This document shows positions 2,300 through 27,414 of a stretch of DNA of 37,236 bases, in pieces (within the stretch, counting starts at the first letter, position 1; every line of letters starts with the position of its first letter). Where the stretch lies: the NCBI GenBank assembly GCA_937139405.1, contig CAKZPV010000011.1, positions 1 through 37,236 of the forward strand. Reading direction: 5' to 3'. Source of the stretch: an uncultured Nitrospirota bacterium (GTDB lineage: Bacteria; Nitrospirota; Nitrospiria; Nitrospirales; UBA8639). The position numbers and the translations under genes were made by a program. Below the pieces are notes generated by a model, which was not told the origin of the DNA, did no database searches, and worked only from the letters and a program-made list of their open reading frames with translations.

Positions 2300-2660
2300 C
2301 CTATCAGAGTTCAAATTATAGATCTTTCTTTTGTTTGTTTTGACTGATGGTGAGTCCCGAACCGTCCAAGCATAGGAGGAATTAAGCCCAAGGCTGATAC
2401 AGCCCGGTGCTTAACCCCATCCAGGTTGTGATCTTGACTGCCGGAGCCGTCCGTCACCGCCTTCGATCACTGTGGCAACTTCGAACCCAGTGATATTGAT
2501 CGCTACTATTTCGGCACCTCGGTGTTAGTACCGGCGACATCCCTTCGATCGTTCGGAGTGGGATTTACCTTTGTCGCGCCCCGTGGTAAGTAAGGAAACC
2601 TGACGCATTCAGGATTGAACTACCCCACTGACTTCACTTCTCAGTAGTTCGTTTTTTAGT
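2300..2660 (+). other. Intergenic stretch with stacked inverted repeats; possible structured RNA
   Basis: No normal gene with a start codon is visible. Clear inverted repeats occur in series. The first is TTAAGC/GCTTAA (about 2382-2414), enclosing GGCTG/CAGCC with a 3-nt loop. The next is ATCACTG (2466-2472)/CAGTGAT (2488-2494). A short CCTGA/TCAGG hairpin lies near 2599-2613, and the terminator hairpin at 2617-2650 closes the series. An AGGAGG at 2374-2379 has no start codon at the right distance. One frame is open from 2438 to a TAA at about 2597 (53 codons, protein-like) but has only a CTG start. The stretch could be a small structured RNA, a long 3' leader or a decayed gene. Confidence 0.4.
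2617..2657 (+). terminator. Rho-independent terminator
   Basis: The stem is GAACT (2617-2621) with AGTTC (2646-2650), a 5-nt bulge, then ACTGA (2627-2631) with TCAGT (2641-2645) and a 9-nt loop. GTTTTTT follows directly. This would end plus-strand transcription coming from the lipoprotein gene or from the structured stretch upstream. Confidence 0.7.
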
Positions 2661-2662
2661 TT

Positions 2663-2699
2663 CAAAACCCTCGTCGGATCATTCCCTCGGGGGTTTTTT
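2663..2699 (+). terminator. Second intrinsic terminator, possibly bidirectional
   Basis: AAAACCCTCG (2664-2673) pairs with CGGGGGTTTT (2688-2697) over 10 bp including one G-U pair, with a 14-nt loop and a T run ending at 2699. The A run on the 5' side means it could also work in the other direction. It stands directly behind the first terminator and insulates the early promoter from upstream transcription. Confidence 0.65.
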
Positions 2700-2817
2700 G
2701 TATTCTGATTCTCACAAGGTCCGGCGCCTAAGCCCCTTCCCTCGCTGTTTTTGAGACTTTCCCTGTCACTTTTGGGCGACAGATGTGGATGTTCTCTATC
2801 GCGTTATGCAAATATTT

Positions 2818-2875
2818 TATAACTTTTGTCAATAATTATAATTTTTGTGATTGACAGATTATAACTATTGTGAAT
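2818..2875. repeat. Three 16-bp direct repeats, candidate operators
   Basis: Three close copies of TATAAyTwTTGTsAwT start at 2818 (TATAACTTTTGTCAAT), 2837 (TATAATTTTTGTGATT) and 2860 (TATAACTATTGTGAAT), spaced 19 and 23 bp. A perfect inverted pair, GTCAAT (2828-2833) and ATTGAC (2850-2855), bridges copies 1 and 2. The repeats surround the early promoter, which is the usual place for repressor binding sites. The binding protein is not identified in the window. Confidence 0.65.
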
Positions 2876-2880
2876 ATTAT
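2851..2880 (+). promoter_or_regulatory. Early operon sigma70-type promoter
   Basis: The -35 is TTGACA (2851-2856), a perfect consensus, and the -10 is TATTAT (2875-2880), 5 of 6 consensus bases, with an 18-bp spacer. Repeat copy 3 fills the spacer and copy 2 overlaps the start of the -35 box, so repeat binding would block polymerase. A TTGACA on the opposite strand (complement of 2827-2832) with a poor -10 could be a weak divergent promoter. Confidence 0.7.
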
Positions 2881-2991
2881 TACTCCCATCAGCAGGACGA
2901 AACCACCCGGAGAAATCCTGTCTGCCCCGCCAAAGCTTCAGTCGTTCAAGCGGTCTGCAACTGGCGGGAATAGATGAAAGGGAATGAGATT

Positions 2992-3330
2992 ATGAGACCT
3001 TATTATCTGACTGTCTGGTCGAGCGAAAAACACGACATCACAGCCGGTGAGCAGTATTTGCATCACACATTGGGTGGCGCTGTAGCTGGTGGCCTTGAGC
3101 AATGTGACAGTCTCGAGGGCTCTTTCTCGATTGTCTTTTTCGATACAGCCAAGGGAACTTCTGAAGATAAGACCGAGGAAGGTTGGAGAGACTTTCAAGA
3201 CGATGGTTGGTTCCGTCGCATTGAATTCAAAGACGGTCAGATATTCCTTGGTGAGCTGAAATCAGATTCCGCGCCCATTAGTGAGCGCCGTCATGGTCAT
3301 GATGCTTATGGCATTCAGGCGAGGGCCTGA
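2992..3330 (+). CDS. Hypothetical early protein, first gene of the early operon
   Basis: The product has 112 residues from ATG 2992 (AAGGGA 8 nt upstream); ATG 2974 in the same frame is an alternative and adds six residues. The protein is soluble and acidic, with a glycine-rich middle (HHTLGGAVAGG) and several tryptophans. It has no membrane segment or recognisable motif. As the first gene after the candidate promoter it is likely made immediately after infection or induction. First-position early genes are often regulators or host-takeover proteins; the sequence itself does not tell which. Confidence 0.65.
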   Translation: MRPYYLTVWSSEKHDITAGEQYLHHTLGGAVAGGLEQCDSLEGSFSIVFFDTAKGTSEDKTEEGWRDFQDDGWFRRIEFKDGQIFLGELKSDSAPISERRHGHDAYGIQARA

Positions 3331-10284: not shown

Positions 10285-10488
10285 ATGGCCCGTAAAAAGT
10301 GCGCAATAAGCCAGGATGAAGTTGCCAGAATGCTCAAGGGCGTTGCTAAGGCAGGGCTCGATGTGCACAGCGTTACGTTGGAAAACGGCCGGCTTGCGGT
10401 TGTGATCAACGGGGATGATGGGGAAAAACGGGATTTAGCGTTTGACGGGAAAGCAAAGGAAGAACCTCTATTGAGGGAACCTGTCTGA
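10285..10488 (+). CDS. Small pre-integrase protein
   Basis: The product has 67 residues. The N-terminal helix 'ISQDEVARMLKGVAKAGLDV' followed by 'SVTLENGRLAVVIN' resembles the short proteins often found directly before tyrosine integrases in rhizobial prophages. It is the right size and place for an excisionase or directionality factor, but no winged helix is obvious. It shares a TGATG junction with the integrase gene (1-base overlap), so the two are translated together. Confidence 0.65.
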   Translation: MARKKCAISQDEVARMLKGVAKAGLDVHSVTLENGRLAVVINGDDGEKRDLAFDGKAKEEPLLREPV

Positions 10489-11534
10489 TGAATCCCGATG
10501 AAATGAAACTGGATCTGCCCCACATTACAACTCGCCCTAAAGGTGGTGGTGGACTTCGGTATTATTTTCGCAGACGTGGGCAACCTGCCGTAAGGCTCCC
10601 TGACGAGCCTCTATCCCCTGAATTTATGAAGGCCTATCACGCTCAGCTCAATCGGAAGGCAGAGCCCAAATCGGGCTATGAAGGCACGTTCGAATGGCTG
10701 TGTGATCAATACATGGATTGCGCAGGCTTCAAAGGATTGGCGAAAGCCACCCGCGATGCCAGGTCAAGAGTAATCAGATCCATGATCAACGAGCCCATTG
10801 ACCCCAAATATCCAGAGACGTTCGGCAGAGAGAAAGCAGCCAGTTTTAAGGCTAAACACGTCCGCGCACTGCGAGATCGTAAGTTTGACGTGCCCAATGC
10901 TGCCAACGAGCGAATCAAGATCCTCAATCAGATATTTGGAATGGCTGTAGCTCGGGGCTGGCGAGATGATATCCCATCGCGTGATGTTGAGAAGATTGTT
11001 ATCAAATCAGATGGCCATGAAACAGCCACAGATGCCCACATAGAGCAGTTCTTTGCCTATCATGCCGAAACCATGCCTGTGCTCGCTATGCGCCTCCTGA
11101 CGGCCTTTGGTATGCGTGTGAGTGATCTACGAAAGGTTGGGCCGCAGCACGTAAATGACGGTGTCCTGGTCTTTGTCACCGAAAAGACGAATATGAAGTG
11201 TGAATTGCCAGTACCGAAAGAACTGTTCACTGATCTGCAGCCATCGGGTGACCTCGTCTTTATGAAGACAACCTATGGCCAAGCTTTCAGAAGCAAGAAA
11301 GCGATGTCGGCCAGAGTGTCCAAATGGTTCAAACAGGCCGGCATTGAGGGAATCACCGCCCACTCGGTCAGAAAGTGGCTGGCAACGCGCATGGCTGAGA
11401 ACGGCGCTACCGAATATGAATTGATGTCTTGGTTTGGATGGAAAGACCCGAAAGAAGCGCGCCCCTATATCCAGAAAGTGCAACGTCAAAAGCTGGCTCA
11501 AACAGCCGCAAAGGCCACCAAATTCAGAGGTTAG
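10488..11534 (+). CDS. int: Tyrosine site-specific integrase
   Basis: The product has 348 residues. The catalytic domain runs from about residue 180: Arg210 in 'FGMRVSDLRK', a Lys near 233-237, His292-x-x-Arg295 in 'AHSVRKW', Trp318 in 'WFGWKD' at the usual second histidine position, and the nucleophile Tyr327 in 'ARPYIQK'. A core-binding domain lies at about 65-170 (FEWLCDQYM). The N-terminal 30 residues with 'LRYYFRRRGQ' fit an arm-binding segment. It would integrate and excise the phage at the attP just downstream. The His-to-Trp change is common in this group. Together with the arm sites this marks the phage as temperate. Confidence 0.92.
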   Translation: MNPDEMKLDLPHITTRPKGGGGLRYYFRRRGQPAVRLPDEPLSPEFMKAYHAQLNRKAEPKSGYEGTFEWLCDQYMDCAGFKGLAKATRDARSRVIRSMINEPIDPKYPETFGREKAASFKAKHVRALRDRKFDVPNAANERIKILNQIFGMAVARGWRDDIPSRDVEKIVIKSDGHETATDAHIEQFFAYHAETMPVLAMRLLTAFGMRVSDLRKVGPQHVNDGVLVFVTEKTNMKCELPVPKELFTDLQPSGDLVFMKTTYGQAFRSKKAMSARVSKWFKQAGIEGITAHSVRKWLATRMAENGATEYELMSWFGWKDPKEARPYIQKVQRQKLAQTAAKATKFRG

Positions 11535-23501: not shown

Positions 23502-23848
23502 TACTGATCAATCAACTCGATCGATGCTATGCGGAAACCAACAAACTCGCTGTCTGTGAATGTTGGTAGCGTCTCAAAATAGACAGTCTTGGTGGCTGCA
23601 TCATCCGGGCATGTCCATGTAAATTCCCCTGTCCCGCCAAGCAGCGTCGTCTCATAGAACGTTTTGAGCAGGGCAACATCTGCTTTGGTCAACAGCAGGT
23701 TGAAGCTGTAGCGATAATCGACGCCCGTTGTCCGGCGTCTAAATCTCATCTTTCCTAGTTCAGATGAATCCCTGGCGACAGTGTCAATAATTGATGTTGC
23801 ATAGGTGCCGAGCAGAGGTTTCTCGAGGTACGCGGGTGCCGCGGTCAT
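23501..23848 (-). CDS. Minor tail protein (gpM-like position)
   Basis: The product has 115 residues. A beta-rich single-domain protein with 'RFRRRTTGVDYRYSFNLLL', a helix 'DVALLKTFYETTLLGGTGEFTW' and a final 'GFRIASIELIDQ' strand, as in small phage tail proteins located between tape measure and DUF1833 gene. It lacks catalytic residues. It overlaps the tape measure stop by 4 bp. The assignment is by position and size. Confidence 0.72.
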   Translation of the reverse strand: MTAAPAYLEKPLLGTYATSIIDTVARDSSELGKMRFRRRTTGVDYRYSFNLLLTKADVALLKTFYETTLLGGTGEFTWTCPDDAATKTVYFETLPTFTDSEFVGFRIASIELIDQ

Positions 23849-25698
23849 CGAGCTACCACCATTGGTTTACTGCTGAACCGCGTCATTGATTTATCGAATT
23901 TACCACTGCCGAGCGCACTACCTGACTTGGCGACGGATTGATCAACAATTGCAGGCGTGGCAGCCCTAACAGTGCTGGCTGATATCTGGGTCATCTGAGC
24001 GGTGAACTTCTCATCATCGGATGAGACCATGATGCTGCCCGTAATAATCACATTGTTGTTGGCTGCTGATTGGCCTTTGGTGTGGTCTATTACCGTCTCA
24101 TTTGGATGGAGAATGGCGGGGAAGCCGCCGCGGCCATCTACACCGCCCGAACGTGCTCCCGGTCCTGTGTGACCACCTCCGTCAAAAGTAATGCCCAATG
24201 CTCCGCCTATAAACGACTGCAAGAAACCACCACCAAGAATACCTTTGCCACCCCCAGCAACATTTACCTGGTTGAGATACTTGAGGAGGGACTGAACGGC
24301 TTGAAATGCCGCATCCTTCCAGCTCAGCGTGTTATCAAGCAAGCCTTTGAAGATACCCCCAAGATCAGAGCCAACTTGTTTCATACCCTCCATCTCAGCC
24401 TTTGCCCGGGCTAGGCCAAATTTCACCTGAGCGCTTTGCTCAGCAAGGTTGGCTATCTCTTTGGCCCGTTCTGCAGTGAGCTTTATGCCGGCATCTTCCA
24501 ATTTGTTGATTAGCTTGGCTTCAACGGTCATACGCTCACGTTCCATTGCACTTTGACCAAGCAACGATTTTTCTAGTTCCAAGCCTGCTATGTACTGTTT
24601 TTGGTCACGGACAATGGCCGAGTATCGGTCAGCGAGTTTCTGGGCGTCGGATTTGCCCTTCTTACCTTTATCTTTTTTGGCATCGGTCTTGGCCTGCCGT
24701 TTTATGGCCTCTGCCTCGATGTCATTGAACAGGTCACCAACGAAGTCCTGCCCCAGAGCTTTCTTGAAGGCACTACCAACACTCTTGCCAACTGCCTTGC
24801 CGGAGAATGGATTGTCCAGTTGCAATGAGCCGGTAATACCGGAACTGTCCAGTTTGCCCATATCGACGCCGGGAATCTGGTTCATGTAGTCGACAATCTG
24901 GTTTACTCCATCGATCGCGGATTTGACCATGTTCTCAATCCCCTTGAGGAATGAATTGGCTATTGCAAACCCGATGAAGCCAAAGGCATTGGGGAGATCA
25001 GCCCAGGCAGCACGAATGGCAGCGGCGGCTCCAACCATTCCACCAACAATGAGGTTGATCACAAATTTGGTCGACGTTTTCACGGCATTCCATACCGCGG
25101 CAAACCATGGGGAAATAGCGAGGATGGCAGGTTGCAAGACCGAATAGATACGGCCAGCAATCACGCTGACCGTCGCGAGAAACACGTTGCCAAGACTGAC
25201 CGTATTTTTGCGACCTTTGTTGATTTCGAATGCTAATCCAGCAAAAACTGCACCCGCCAATCCAACCGCTGCTGTGACCAATGGAAATTTGGTTAGCACA
25301 CCAACTATTAACCGGCCAGTCTCTTTGAAGGCACGACCAATACCACCTTCATTTGGACCATAGATCTGGCCAATCTGTGAACCCTGTTGGATAGCAACCA
25401 TCATCGGGTTCATTCCAGAAGCCAACGAGACGAAAACGTCATTCAACTGGAACACGAGGTTCTTCTGTTGGAATGATGCAGCCCGAGCAGCTTTCGCGTT
25501 TATTTGCAAGGCGGCACTATTGGCCCGGACAGCGGCCGAGGTTGATGTCATCGATGTGGATACAACGCCTGATGTGCTGTGAAGCGTGTCCATTTGGTTT
25601 TCAGCGCGAGCAGCAGCACCCGTCAGGTTTTGCAGCTCAGCAGCCGCTTTCTTTGGGCCCACTGTTTCAACAGCAATACCCAGTCTTGCTATGTCCAT
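23845..25698 (-). CDS. Tail tape measure protein
   Basis: The product has 617 residues. Alanine-rich helical N-terminal part ('KKAAAELQNLTGAAARAENQM'), membrane-like segments ('TAAVGLAGAVFAGLAF' near 143-158; 'VINLIVGGMVGAAAAIRAAW' near 214-233), a charged middle (AKTDAKKDKGKKGKSDAQK), then a glycine-rich end with 'FDGGGHTGPGARSGG' and 'ILHPNETVIDH', typical of TMP_2-type tape measures. The length sets tail length; 617 residues predict a fairly short siphovirus tail. The plus-strand gene at 25754 begins only 55 bp from its start, so the tail gene block is interrupted here. Confidence 0.88.
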   Translation of the reverse strand: MDIARLGIAVETVGPKKAAAELQNLTGAAARAENQMDTLHSTSGVVSTSMTSTSAAVRANSAALQINAKAARAASFQQKNLVFQLNDVFVSLASGMNPMMVAIQQGSQIGQIYGPNEGGIGRAFKETGRLIVGVLTKFPLVTAAVGLAGAVFAGLAFEINKGRKNTVSLGNVFLATVSVIAGRIYSVLQPAILAISPWFAAVWNAVKTSTKFVINLIVGGMVGAAAAIRAAWADLPNAFGFIGFAIANSFLKGIENMVKSAIDGVNQIVDYMNQIPGVDMGKLDSSGITGSLQLDNPFSGKAVGKSVGSAFKKALGQDFVGDLFNDIEAEAIKRQAKTDAKKDKGKKGKSDAQKLADRYSAIVRDQKQYIAGLELEKSLLGQSAMERERMTVEAKLINKLEDAGIKLTAERAKEIANLAEQSAQVKFGLARAKAEMEGMKQVGSDLGGIFKGLLDNTLSWKDAAFQAVQSLLKYLNQVNVAGGGKGILGGGFLQSFIGGALGITFDGGGHTGPGARSGGVDGRGGFPAILHPNETVIDHTKGQSAANNNVIITGSIMVSSDDEKFTAQMTQISASTVRAATPAIVDQSVAKSGSALGSGKFDKSMTRFSSKPMVVAR

Positions 25699-25753: not shown

Positions 25754-26236
25754 TTGAAAAAATCCACACTAATCGCTTGTCTATGCTTGTTTCCGACACC
25801 AGCAATGTCCGATGGACCTGAACTAGGTTGGAACATTTCTTACTATCAAGACACCTTTTCTCAGGACATCACAGCGGTAGGCCACGTCACCGAAATTGGT
25901 CAGGTATTCGATAGCGGAACGATCTACATGCTTTGTGATGCAGGCGAATTGTCTGTCGGCTTCTCTCCCAAGCGGCTCATGATGTTTACTGACACAGTAT
26001 CCGCTCAATTTAAGAGCGGCGACACTACTGAGGAAATAACGGTTGTCGCCCGAAAATTCCCTATCGTCGGGAACAGGTTGGCCGCATCGTCCAAAGACAA
26101 TGATCGGTTTATGAACTTTTTATTGAAGGCTACGCAAACAATCGCCTTCAAGAGTGACGACAAGCAAGGGAAGTTTCCAATAGTAGGATTGAAGAAAGTG
26201 TTCTCAATCCTGAAATCGGAATGCACTTCATCATGA
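25754..26236 (+). CDS. Exported protein set backwards in the tail operon (candidate moron)
   Basis: TTG 25754 is supported by GGAAGG at 25739-25744, 9 nt upstream. The product has 160 residues with a signal peptide (MKKS, hydrophobic 'TLIACLCLFPTPAMS', cleavage near residue 19). The mature part has 'YMLCDAGELSVGFSP' and ends 'GLKKVFSILKSEC', so two cysteines far apart could form a disulfide. The order resembles the VasI/TagO-type beta fold, but this is weak. Standing on the opposite strand between tape measure and chaperone genes, it must have its own promoter; such cargo genes are often expressed in the lysogen. It runs into the gpGT stop (6-bp overlap). Confidence 0.75.
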   Translation: MKKSTLIACLCLFPTPAMSDGPELGWNISYYQDTFSQDITAVGHVTEIGQVFDSGTIYMLCDAGELSVGFSPKRLMMFTDTVSAQFKSGDTTEEITVVARKFPIVGNRLAASSKDNDRFMNFLLKATQTIAFKSDDKQGKFPIVGLKKVFSILKSECTSS

Positions 26237-26599
26237 AGACTTTTCCCGTTCACTGATCGCCGACATCTCCCCACCTACCGATCGACACCAGGCAGCATCT
26301 ATTTGCCTCAGTATTGCGACCTCATGGGCATTCACCGCTGTTTTGGTACACATCATCCAAAAGGCTAACTCTGCGTATGTGAGGCGCTGTGGGCCCGCCT
26401 CTGTCCATACCCGAGAACCATTGATCTCATAGAACCAATCCAGCAGAAACGAGCACGGTAGCCACTCAGATTGAACAGGGCTTTCTACCCCAAAGTTGTC
26501 ATTGCGCTCGCGCCGGGTGAGCTTGTCGCTATCCGATACCGTGTCATAGCGACCTGCGATCTCAACTGCATTGCTGAGGATCTCACCTACTTCGAGGTA
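26231..26599 (-). CDS. gpT-like extension made by -1 frameshift (gpGT)
   Basis: No start codon is needed: the frame is entered by slippage from the gpG gene. It encodes 122 residues beginning with YLEVGEILSNAVEIAGRYD and closing with 'GGEMSAISEREKSS', TGA at 26233-26231. The part 'FLLDWFYEINGSRVW' and 'RLTYAELAFWMMCTKTAVNA' fits the alpha-helical T domain of tail chaperones. The whole gpGT would be 244 residues. It lies on the same strand between gpG and the tape measure, but the backward gene at 25754 separates it from the tape measure gene. Confidence 0.75.
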   Translation of the reverse strand, partial: YLEVGEILSNAVEIAGRYDTVSDSDKLTRRERNDNFGVESPVQSEWLPCSFLLDWFYEINGSRVWTEAGPQRLTYAELAFWMMCTKTAVNAHEVAILRQIDAAWCRSVGGEMSAISEREKSS

Positions 26600-26964
26600 A
26601 AATTTCCTCTGTCTTCGGACGCCCTCGACACTTGGTCATAGATCCAACCATGCGTATCTAAAACGAGTCTGACATTCTCAAATGAGTATTCTAGGTCCAA
26701 ATCACCAAGGGTGTTTTCGCCCCAATCCCAAGACGCAATTGACGTTGTAGCTTTATCCAGTAATTCGGCTTCAAGTTGAGCGGTTTGCAGCTTTGGGCGC
26801 TGTTTTCCGAGGAACTTGTCAGCATGTTCGCGGCTAATGTCTTTTACTTCTTTGCTCTCGTAAGACCGTATTTCAAAGGTTACGCCGAGAGGTTTGTCGC
26901 TGATGGGATGCACCAATTCCAAGCGGTGAAGCCCATCAGTTTTTACAAGTGTACCGAGATCCAT
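26587..26964 (-). CDS. Tail assembly chaperone (gpG-like)
   Basis: The product has 125 residues. It follows the tail tube gene by 3 bp, exactly where lambda gene G lies. It has the usual beta N-terminus ('LHRLELVHPISDKPLGVTFE'), a polar helical middle and 'WDWGEN...LDLEYSFENVRLVL'. It keeps the tape measure soluble during tail assembly. A -1 slippery heptamer near its end gives the longer gpGT product, entered separately. Confidence 0.8.
   Translation of the reverse strand: MDLGTLVKTDGLHRLELVHPISDKPLGVTFEIRSYESKEVKDISREHADKFLGKQRPKLQTAQLEAELLDKATTSIASWDWGENTLGDLDLEYSFENVRLVLDTHGWIYDQVSRASEDRGNFTSK
26599..26605 (-). promoter_or_regulatory. -1 ribosomal frameshift site (A AAT TTT)
   Basis: Read on the minus strand in the gpG frame, the heptamer is A AAT TTT, the X XXY YYZ form needed for tandem slippage; both tRNAs re-pair after a shift of one base (AAA TTT). 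It lies four codons before the gpG stop (26587). A short ACCT/AGGT hairpin with a 6-base loop follows within a few bases and may help. Programmed -1 shifts in this gene pair are established in many long-tailed phages. Confidence 0.78.
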
Positions 26965-26967
26965 TGC

Positions 26968-27414
26968 TTATGCGTCCTCAAGAACCAATTGAACCATACC
27001 GACGTTGAACTGCTCGAGAATGAAATCCTCATTGGCTCCGCCTGGTCGGCTTGGACCACCAATAATAGCCCGAGTGTATTGGTTTGTACCGTCCGGCAAT
27101 GTCCGTTTCAGGGCATAATACAGGGCGGAGTTTGCAGCAATGCGCAACGTATCTTGACCAGTATCGGCCGCATCACGAGCAACCTCAATGACGGGATCTC
27201 CCGCATTTCGAATGCCTTTCTGCTTTTGCGATACATCCTCATCAACAGTGTTGTATGAGAGAATGTTGTCCTCAGTGGACCATTCCCCGGCATTACCGAC
27301 GCCGTTGATTTGTATCCATGTGAGGGCTTCAAAGCCAGTTTGGTCGAGGTCCGCCGCCTGCGTAGTTGCGCAGATGAAAACGTCGGTTCCGTTATATGTG
27401 TACTTAACAGCCAT
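26968..27414 (-). CDS. Major tail tube protein
   Basis: The product has 148 residues, directly before the G/GT chaperone genes. The sequence is beta-rich: 'VKYTYNGTDVFICATTQAADL', 'FEALTWIQINGVGNAGEW' and later 'FNVGMVQLVLED'. This 'gvGnaGew...dnilsYntvdedv' order is common to small tail tube proteins of siphoviruses with a gpV-like fold. Many copies stack into the tail tube. The start has GGAACCTCAGGA just upstream, a strong ribosome site, in line with high expression. Confidence 0.82.
   Translation of the reverse strand: MAVKYTYNGTDVFICATTQAADLDQTGFEALTWIQINGVGNAGEWSTEDNILSYNTVDEDVSQKQKGIRNAGDPVIEVARDAADTGQDTLRIAANSALYYALKRTLPDGTNQYTRAIIGGPSRPGGANEDFILEQFNVGMVQLVLEDA

Follow-up and report, generated by a model that had tools for sequence, protein, structure and literature searches.

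Sequence evidence for a probable lambda-type G/GT tail assembly chaperone pair made by predicted -1 frameshifting at A AAT TTT

The window analysed here, a whole contig of 37,236 bp, carries on its minus strand a siphovirus tail module, in which matches to Pfam and PHROG profiles give the order tail terminator, tube, G/T and tape measure. Because an integrase-like ORF also lies in the window, the stretch is probably a prophage or the contig of a temperate phage. The features that concern us are:

27848-27435, minus strand: tail terminator (Pfam Phage_tail_terminator_5)
26968..27414, minus strand: major tail (tube) protein, upstream of G (Pfam Phage_tail_3, E 1.1e-06, over the cut-off; phrog_158)
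26587..26964, minus strand: gene G, tail assembly chaperone, an ORF whose zero-frame product has 125 aa (phrog_313; AlphaFold model)
26599..26605, minus strand: slippery heptamer A AAT TTT, in register as X XXY YYZ
26231..26605, minus strand: T frame (-1), which would be read only after slippage; 122 codons past the heptamer plus stop, with the frame open from 26635 (phrog_20700)
26231..26964, minus strand: predicted GT fusion of 244 aa, from an in-silico -1 shift at 26605-26599
25754-26236, plus strand: ORF of 160 aa between T and the tape measure gene
23845..25698, minus strand: tape measure protein, downstream in the operon (Pfam TMP_2, E 1.7e-17)
10488-11534: integrase-like ORF, named by eye

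Gene G lies directly downstream of the tube gene, and its product matches PHROG 313, 'Tail assembly chaperone', over residues 8-124 (E 5.5e-13). The AlphaFold model of G has a pLDDT of 84.3 and finds its best PDB match in 2ob9, the HK97 tail assembly chaperone (Foldseek E 0.12, probability 0.80). Scores for this best solved match to the predicted fold are modest, with a Z of 6.0 and an rmsd of 5.5 over 97 residues, but only 11% sequence identity; the next PDB match, YqbN (3klu), has a Z of 4.0.

The 3' end of G reads GGA AAT TTT ACC TCG AAG TAG. An earlier note, made from the letters of this DNA, had placed an X XXY YYZ heptamer at 26605-26599 of the minus strand, four codons before the G stop. 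The sequence confirms the heptamer, its register and its position; the count of four includes the stop codon, and three sense codons (9 nt) separate the heptamer from the stop. That note had also described a -1 frame that stays open for 122 codons beyond the heptamer and lacks a start codon of its own at the beginning. Both statements hold: the frame is open from 26635 to a stop ending at 26231, with 124 codons counted from the AAA of the heptamer, and its first ATG, GTG or TTG is codon 83 (26356), which falls inside the predicted fold. A run of 124 random codons of the same base composition would stay open with p ~0.002. Since the -1 frame is open to 26231, slippage would give a GT protein of 244 aa, the length that had been proposed and that the in-silico shift returns. 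Taken alone, the site in the window is suggestive. Among the 6118 codons in the structural genes of the window, 20 carry an in-register X XXY YYZ sequence, two of the 20 being shifty sites of the A/T type, and for the residues Gly-Asn-Phe the codons GGA AAT TTT have a chance expectation of ~5% in the window. It is therefore the comparison with relatives that decides.

The protein encoded by the T frame matches phrog_20700, a family whose function is listed as unknown, with an E of 1.8e-30. In Pfam, all 21 T proteins of our alignment A4 match PF23812 (Phage_TAC_18) at E<=0.1, the best at 3e-15. The T of the window scores 21.3 bits (E 3e-4), under the curated cut-off of 27 bits; judged by sequence, it is related to Phage_TAC_18, though its own score does not make it a filed member. 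The AlphaFold model of T is confident (pLDDT 95.3), and both its first helix and the conserved T sequence begin at the slip codon. Matches of the model among viral structures include several named as chaperones of the tail or tape measure, among them a 'tail assembly chaperone' from phage Loki and a 'tape measure chaperone' from Seurat; among the PDB chains compared, none reached a Z of 5 or more.

Single-protein scans with G against viral contigs, and with T against genome contigs and family genomes, returned no relatives; these were found with the T alignments A3, A4 and A6. An alignment of G contained no stretch conserved enough for scanning. A handful of phage records supplied the first relatives; the scans with T alignments added ~150 loci, among which prophages of Rhizobium, Ensifer, Neorhizobium and their relatives are numerous. 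From these we chose, by profiles of G and T, 161 loci in which both parts are present (among them a few copies of the window), and clustering at 70% T identity gave 31 clusters. In a phylogeny built on G and T, the window is sister to a viral contig, L133, which has the same heptamer (support 100/99), and both belong to a larger clade (96/87) made up of eight rows with A AAT TTT.

In every one of the 161 loci, T and the 3' end of G overlap in different frames. The T frame stands at -1 relative to G in 150 of them and at +1 in the other 11; it is in the frame of G in none. The objection foreseen in the earlier note, homologues in which T is an independent gene, is thus not borne out. The sites of the 31 clusters comprise A AAT TTT (8), T TTT TTN (16), G GGA AAN (2), non-canonical -1 sites (4) and a +1 site (1), and most clusters have no ATG, GTG or TTG in the T frame between the point where it opens and the 20th codon after the slip site. 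As to whether heptamer and -1 frame are kept together in homologues, a canonical -1 heptamer is present in 26 of 31 clusters; the other five are the four non-canonical clusters and the +1 cluster.

Codon usage at the site is more constrained than the amino acids require. In the largest cluster, of Rhizobiaceae type, 79 of 79 distinct prophage sequences have the codons GCA AAT TTT, whereas elsewhere in the same 79 G genes Phe is written TTT 32 times and TTC 274 times, GCA accounts for 159 of 1097 Ala codons, and the flanking codons vary synonymously. To compare clusters we used a G protein alignment made without regard to the site, in preference to a site picker that favours TTT. In the aligned slip column, 29 of 31 clusters have TTT, as against 26 TTT to 72 TTC elsewhere in G. 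One exception is a cluster with GGGAAAG upstream; the other is the +1 clade, where the next codon is a slippery TTT. These counts are of related sequences and not of independent trials, but nearby synonymous positions do vary across that tree. We infer that nearly all relatives slip at the same Phe codon, by way of A AAT TTT, T TTT TTN or degenerate sites.

A broken heptamer beside an intact T, named in the earlier note as evidence against its reading, does occur, in 4 of the 31 clusters: G AAT TTT (L013/L070, and again L015), G TTT TTT (L004) and GAT TTT TAT (L024/L025/L029/L036). All four, however, retain a TTT codon where tRNA-Phe can re-pair one base back. The first position, X, is therefore less constrained than the rest of the heptamer, and the core claim stands.

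The T frame also bears the marks of a protein-coding sequence. Past the G stop, in the Rhizobiaceae-type cluster, third codon positions vary most (0.46, against 0.23 and 0.15 for the others), and the median dN/dS in the T frame is 0.175 over 282 pairs, the other frames containing stops. On these substitution patterns, T is under purifying selection.

The arrangement resembles that of the gpG/gpGT tail assembly chaperones of phage lambda, which are made by a -1 frameshift at G GGA AAG (PMC5009743). As in lambda, a short G with a predicted rare -1 extension lies between the tube and tape measure genes, here as an ORF between the Phage_tail_3 and TMP_2 genes; a second frame overlaps the G 3' end without a start of its own, in the window as in relatives; and the overlap, near the G 3' end, contains an in-register slippery sequence that relatives conserve. 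Unlike lambda, the window has an opposite-strand ORF intervening between T and the tape measure gene, and its proteins match neither of the lambda-type minor tail protein G and T families in Pfam, for which the proteins scanned gave no match at E<=0.1. The heptamer differs as well, as had been remarked from the sequence; yet within the same G family, Mannheimia phage 1152AP2 has G GGA AAG, the site of lambda, and two Pasteurella phages have G GGA AAC.

Taken together, these comparisons argue, with a probability of about 0.94, that the window encodes a pair of lambda-type G/GT tail assembly chaperones produced by programmed -1 ribosomal frameshifting. They support a predicted mechanism of the classical G/GT kind long known from phage lambda. 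Most ribosomes would read G through to its stop and make the 125-aa protein. In a minority, the Asn-tRNA on AAT in the P site and the Phe-tRNA on TTT in the A site would both slip back by one base, to AAA and TTT, and continue with TAC CTC to yield the 244-aa GT, with a predicted junction peptide of ...GNF-YLEVGEILSNAVEIAGR. If the lambda model applies, G would coat the tape measure protein, and GT, made in small amounts, would use its T domain to recruit tube subunits.

Tandem slippage might not be needed. In a variant of this explanation, a single P-site tRNA-Phe slips on T TTT and AAA is merely an enhancer; the retention of T TTT in loci whose heptamer is disrupted in its first part (L013, L015 and the L024 group) fits it, as does the +1 clade, whose slipping codon is again Phe TTT, followed by C. 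The full tandem heptamer in 26 of 31 clusters and the A before AAT fixed in 79 of 79 sequences speak against it, and we regard the variant as unlikely.

Other explanations dispense with ribosomal slippage altogether. T follows G closely, some deposited records annotate it separately (in phage RHph_X2_24, with a start at locus 2031), and a few relatives have GTG or TTG codons soon after the slip site that would allow a separate start, so T could be an ordinary gene with an unusual start codon of its own, its translation coupled to the G stop. Such a gene would have no candidate start in the window before codon 83 and none in most clusters within the 20 codons past the slip site; it would leave unexplained the fixation of AAT TTT and the preceding A in 79 of 79 sequences, and the beginning of both conserved sequence and first helix at the slip codon is equally at odds with it, so that we consider a separate start highly improbable. 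The change of frame might instead arise at transcription, from RNA polymerase slipping on the A/T run, and at this position some relatives do carry stretches of 6-8 T. In the window, AAA is followed by no more than TTTT, a run too short for known polymerase slippage, although the window's site is part of the same series. Moreover, the register to the G codons is conserved, and only ribosomes read register. The chances of polymerase slippage are slimmer still. Finally, an indel of 1 nt produces just such a frame change in a coding region, and the two frames could be a single gene broken by recent mutation or sequencing error. That reading is already refuted by the conservation of the arrangement, the same out-of-frame layout recurring in 161 loci from phage isolates, prophages and viral contigs with none in frame, and it is further contradicted by the purifying selection on T; we assign it practically no weight.

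Returning to programmed frameshifting on the ribosome, we looked for stimulators around the heptamer. Upstream pairing with the anti-Shine-Dalgarno sequence was no better than with shuffled codons across clusters (z -0.7 in the window). Folding of the 60 nt downstream was not unusual in the window (z 0.19; z -1.85 for the first 100 nt) and averaged a z of -1.05 over the 31 clusters. Neither an upstream Shine-Dalgarno-like element nor a downstream structure is conserved across the 31 clusters, and the heptamer may suffice by itself or be weakly aided by nearby sequence. In the Rhizobiaceae-type cluster (for example, L039-L066 and L077-L132), 75 of 79 sequences have GAG five codons ahead of the slip codon, compared with about half at other Glu positions. 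This GAG yields an upstream GGAG, absent from the window at that place, which hints at a stimulatory role. The same cluster has a possible hairpin, AGAGC...GGCTCT, just downstream; it too is absent from the window and may be a stimulator.

The 11 loci with T in the +1 frame (L019-L021, L027, L028, L030-L032, L073, L074 and L076) come from Stenotrophomonas prophages and viral contigs. In these, G ends with TTC TTT CGC or TTC TTT CAG and a short tail. They form a single clade (100/99) nested among T TTT TTN relatives (98/96) in the G and T phylogeny. Here tRNA-Phe could re-pair from UUU to UUC at +1. The same P-site slip at UUU_C is the established +1 frameshift of influenza A PA-X, at UCC_UUU_CGU (PMC3498833); PA-X is an unrelated gene of a different kind of organism, and the parallel is an analogy that touches the relatives and not the window. 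Slippage by -2 was rejected for this clade, as TTC TTT offers no good re-pairing at -2. It is likely, on the evidence of alignment and tree, that within one homologous G/T family the direction of frameshifting flipped at nearly the same codon, from the -1 of most members to the +1 of the Stenotrophomonas-type clade nested in T TTT TTN. This flip concerns relatives only; the window belongs with the -1 members. Frameshifts of -1, -2 and +1 are known from different tailed phages (PMC5009743); what would be new is that the direction changed among homologues of a single family. If true, this would mean that tail assembly selects only for the rare fusion and that tRNA-Phe on UUU is the common slipping element. 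Among the papers searched, none dealt with a direction switch in this G/T chaperone family. The match obtained for AAATTTT together with frameshift, phage and tail concerns a Wolbachia hydrolase and not a tail chaperone.

The slip site is well conserved across a poorly annotated phage family. In the Rhizobium phages vB_RglS_P106B (L003) and RHph_X2_24 (L002), both of Rigallicvirus, T is homologous to that of the window and stands in the -1 frame, and the G of RHph_X2_24 is homologous by direct tblastn. Three codons before the G stop these phages have T TTT TTC or T TTT TTT, compared with A AAT TTT in the window. Their deposited annotations give a separate hypothetical T and no frameshift, with an internal start in one case (P106B_30, which is truncated at its N terminus) and a TTG start in RHph_X2_24. 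The layout described here suggests a function for the T proteins of phrog_20700 and offers a simple way to locate the missing GT product in prophages of Rhizobiales and in some gammaproteobacterial ones, whose database entries show either a truncated T or a pair of separate hypothetical proteins. Moreover, the natural series of sites found at a single codon position (A AAT TTT, T TTT TTN, degenerate sites and the +1 TTT C) constitutes a ready test set for what sets the efficiency and direction of frameshifting in bacteria, in which the non-canonical clusters offer natural experiments on how much of the heptamer slippage requires.

Among 270 genomes of the host's class and 236 of its order, the T profile and phrog_20700 found the window's own copy only, and the element is therefore rare among the relatives of its host. 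One A AAT TTT relative (L075) lies on a 407-kb contig labelled Bacillus subtilis SK6B4; because the phage family is otherwise proteobacterial, the label may be wrong, through contamination or misnaming.

The 160-aa opposite-strand ORF that separates T from the tape measure gene has a signal-peptide-like start (MKKSTLIACLCLFPTPAMS), and its stop overlaps the stop region of T. It had no match in Pfam, PHROGs, plasmids or the 270 class genomes except its own, and it looks like a cargo gene inserted into the tail operon. The same interval between T and the tape measure gene is occupied in RHph_X2_24 by a putative homing endonuclease gene (2387-3013).
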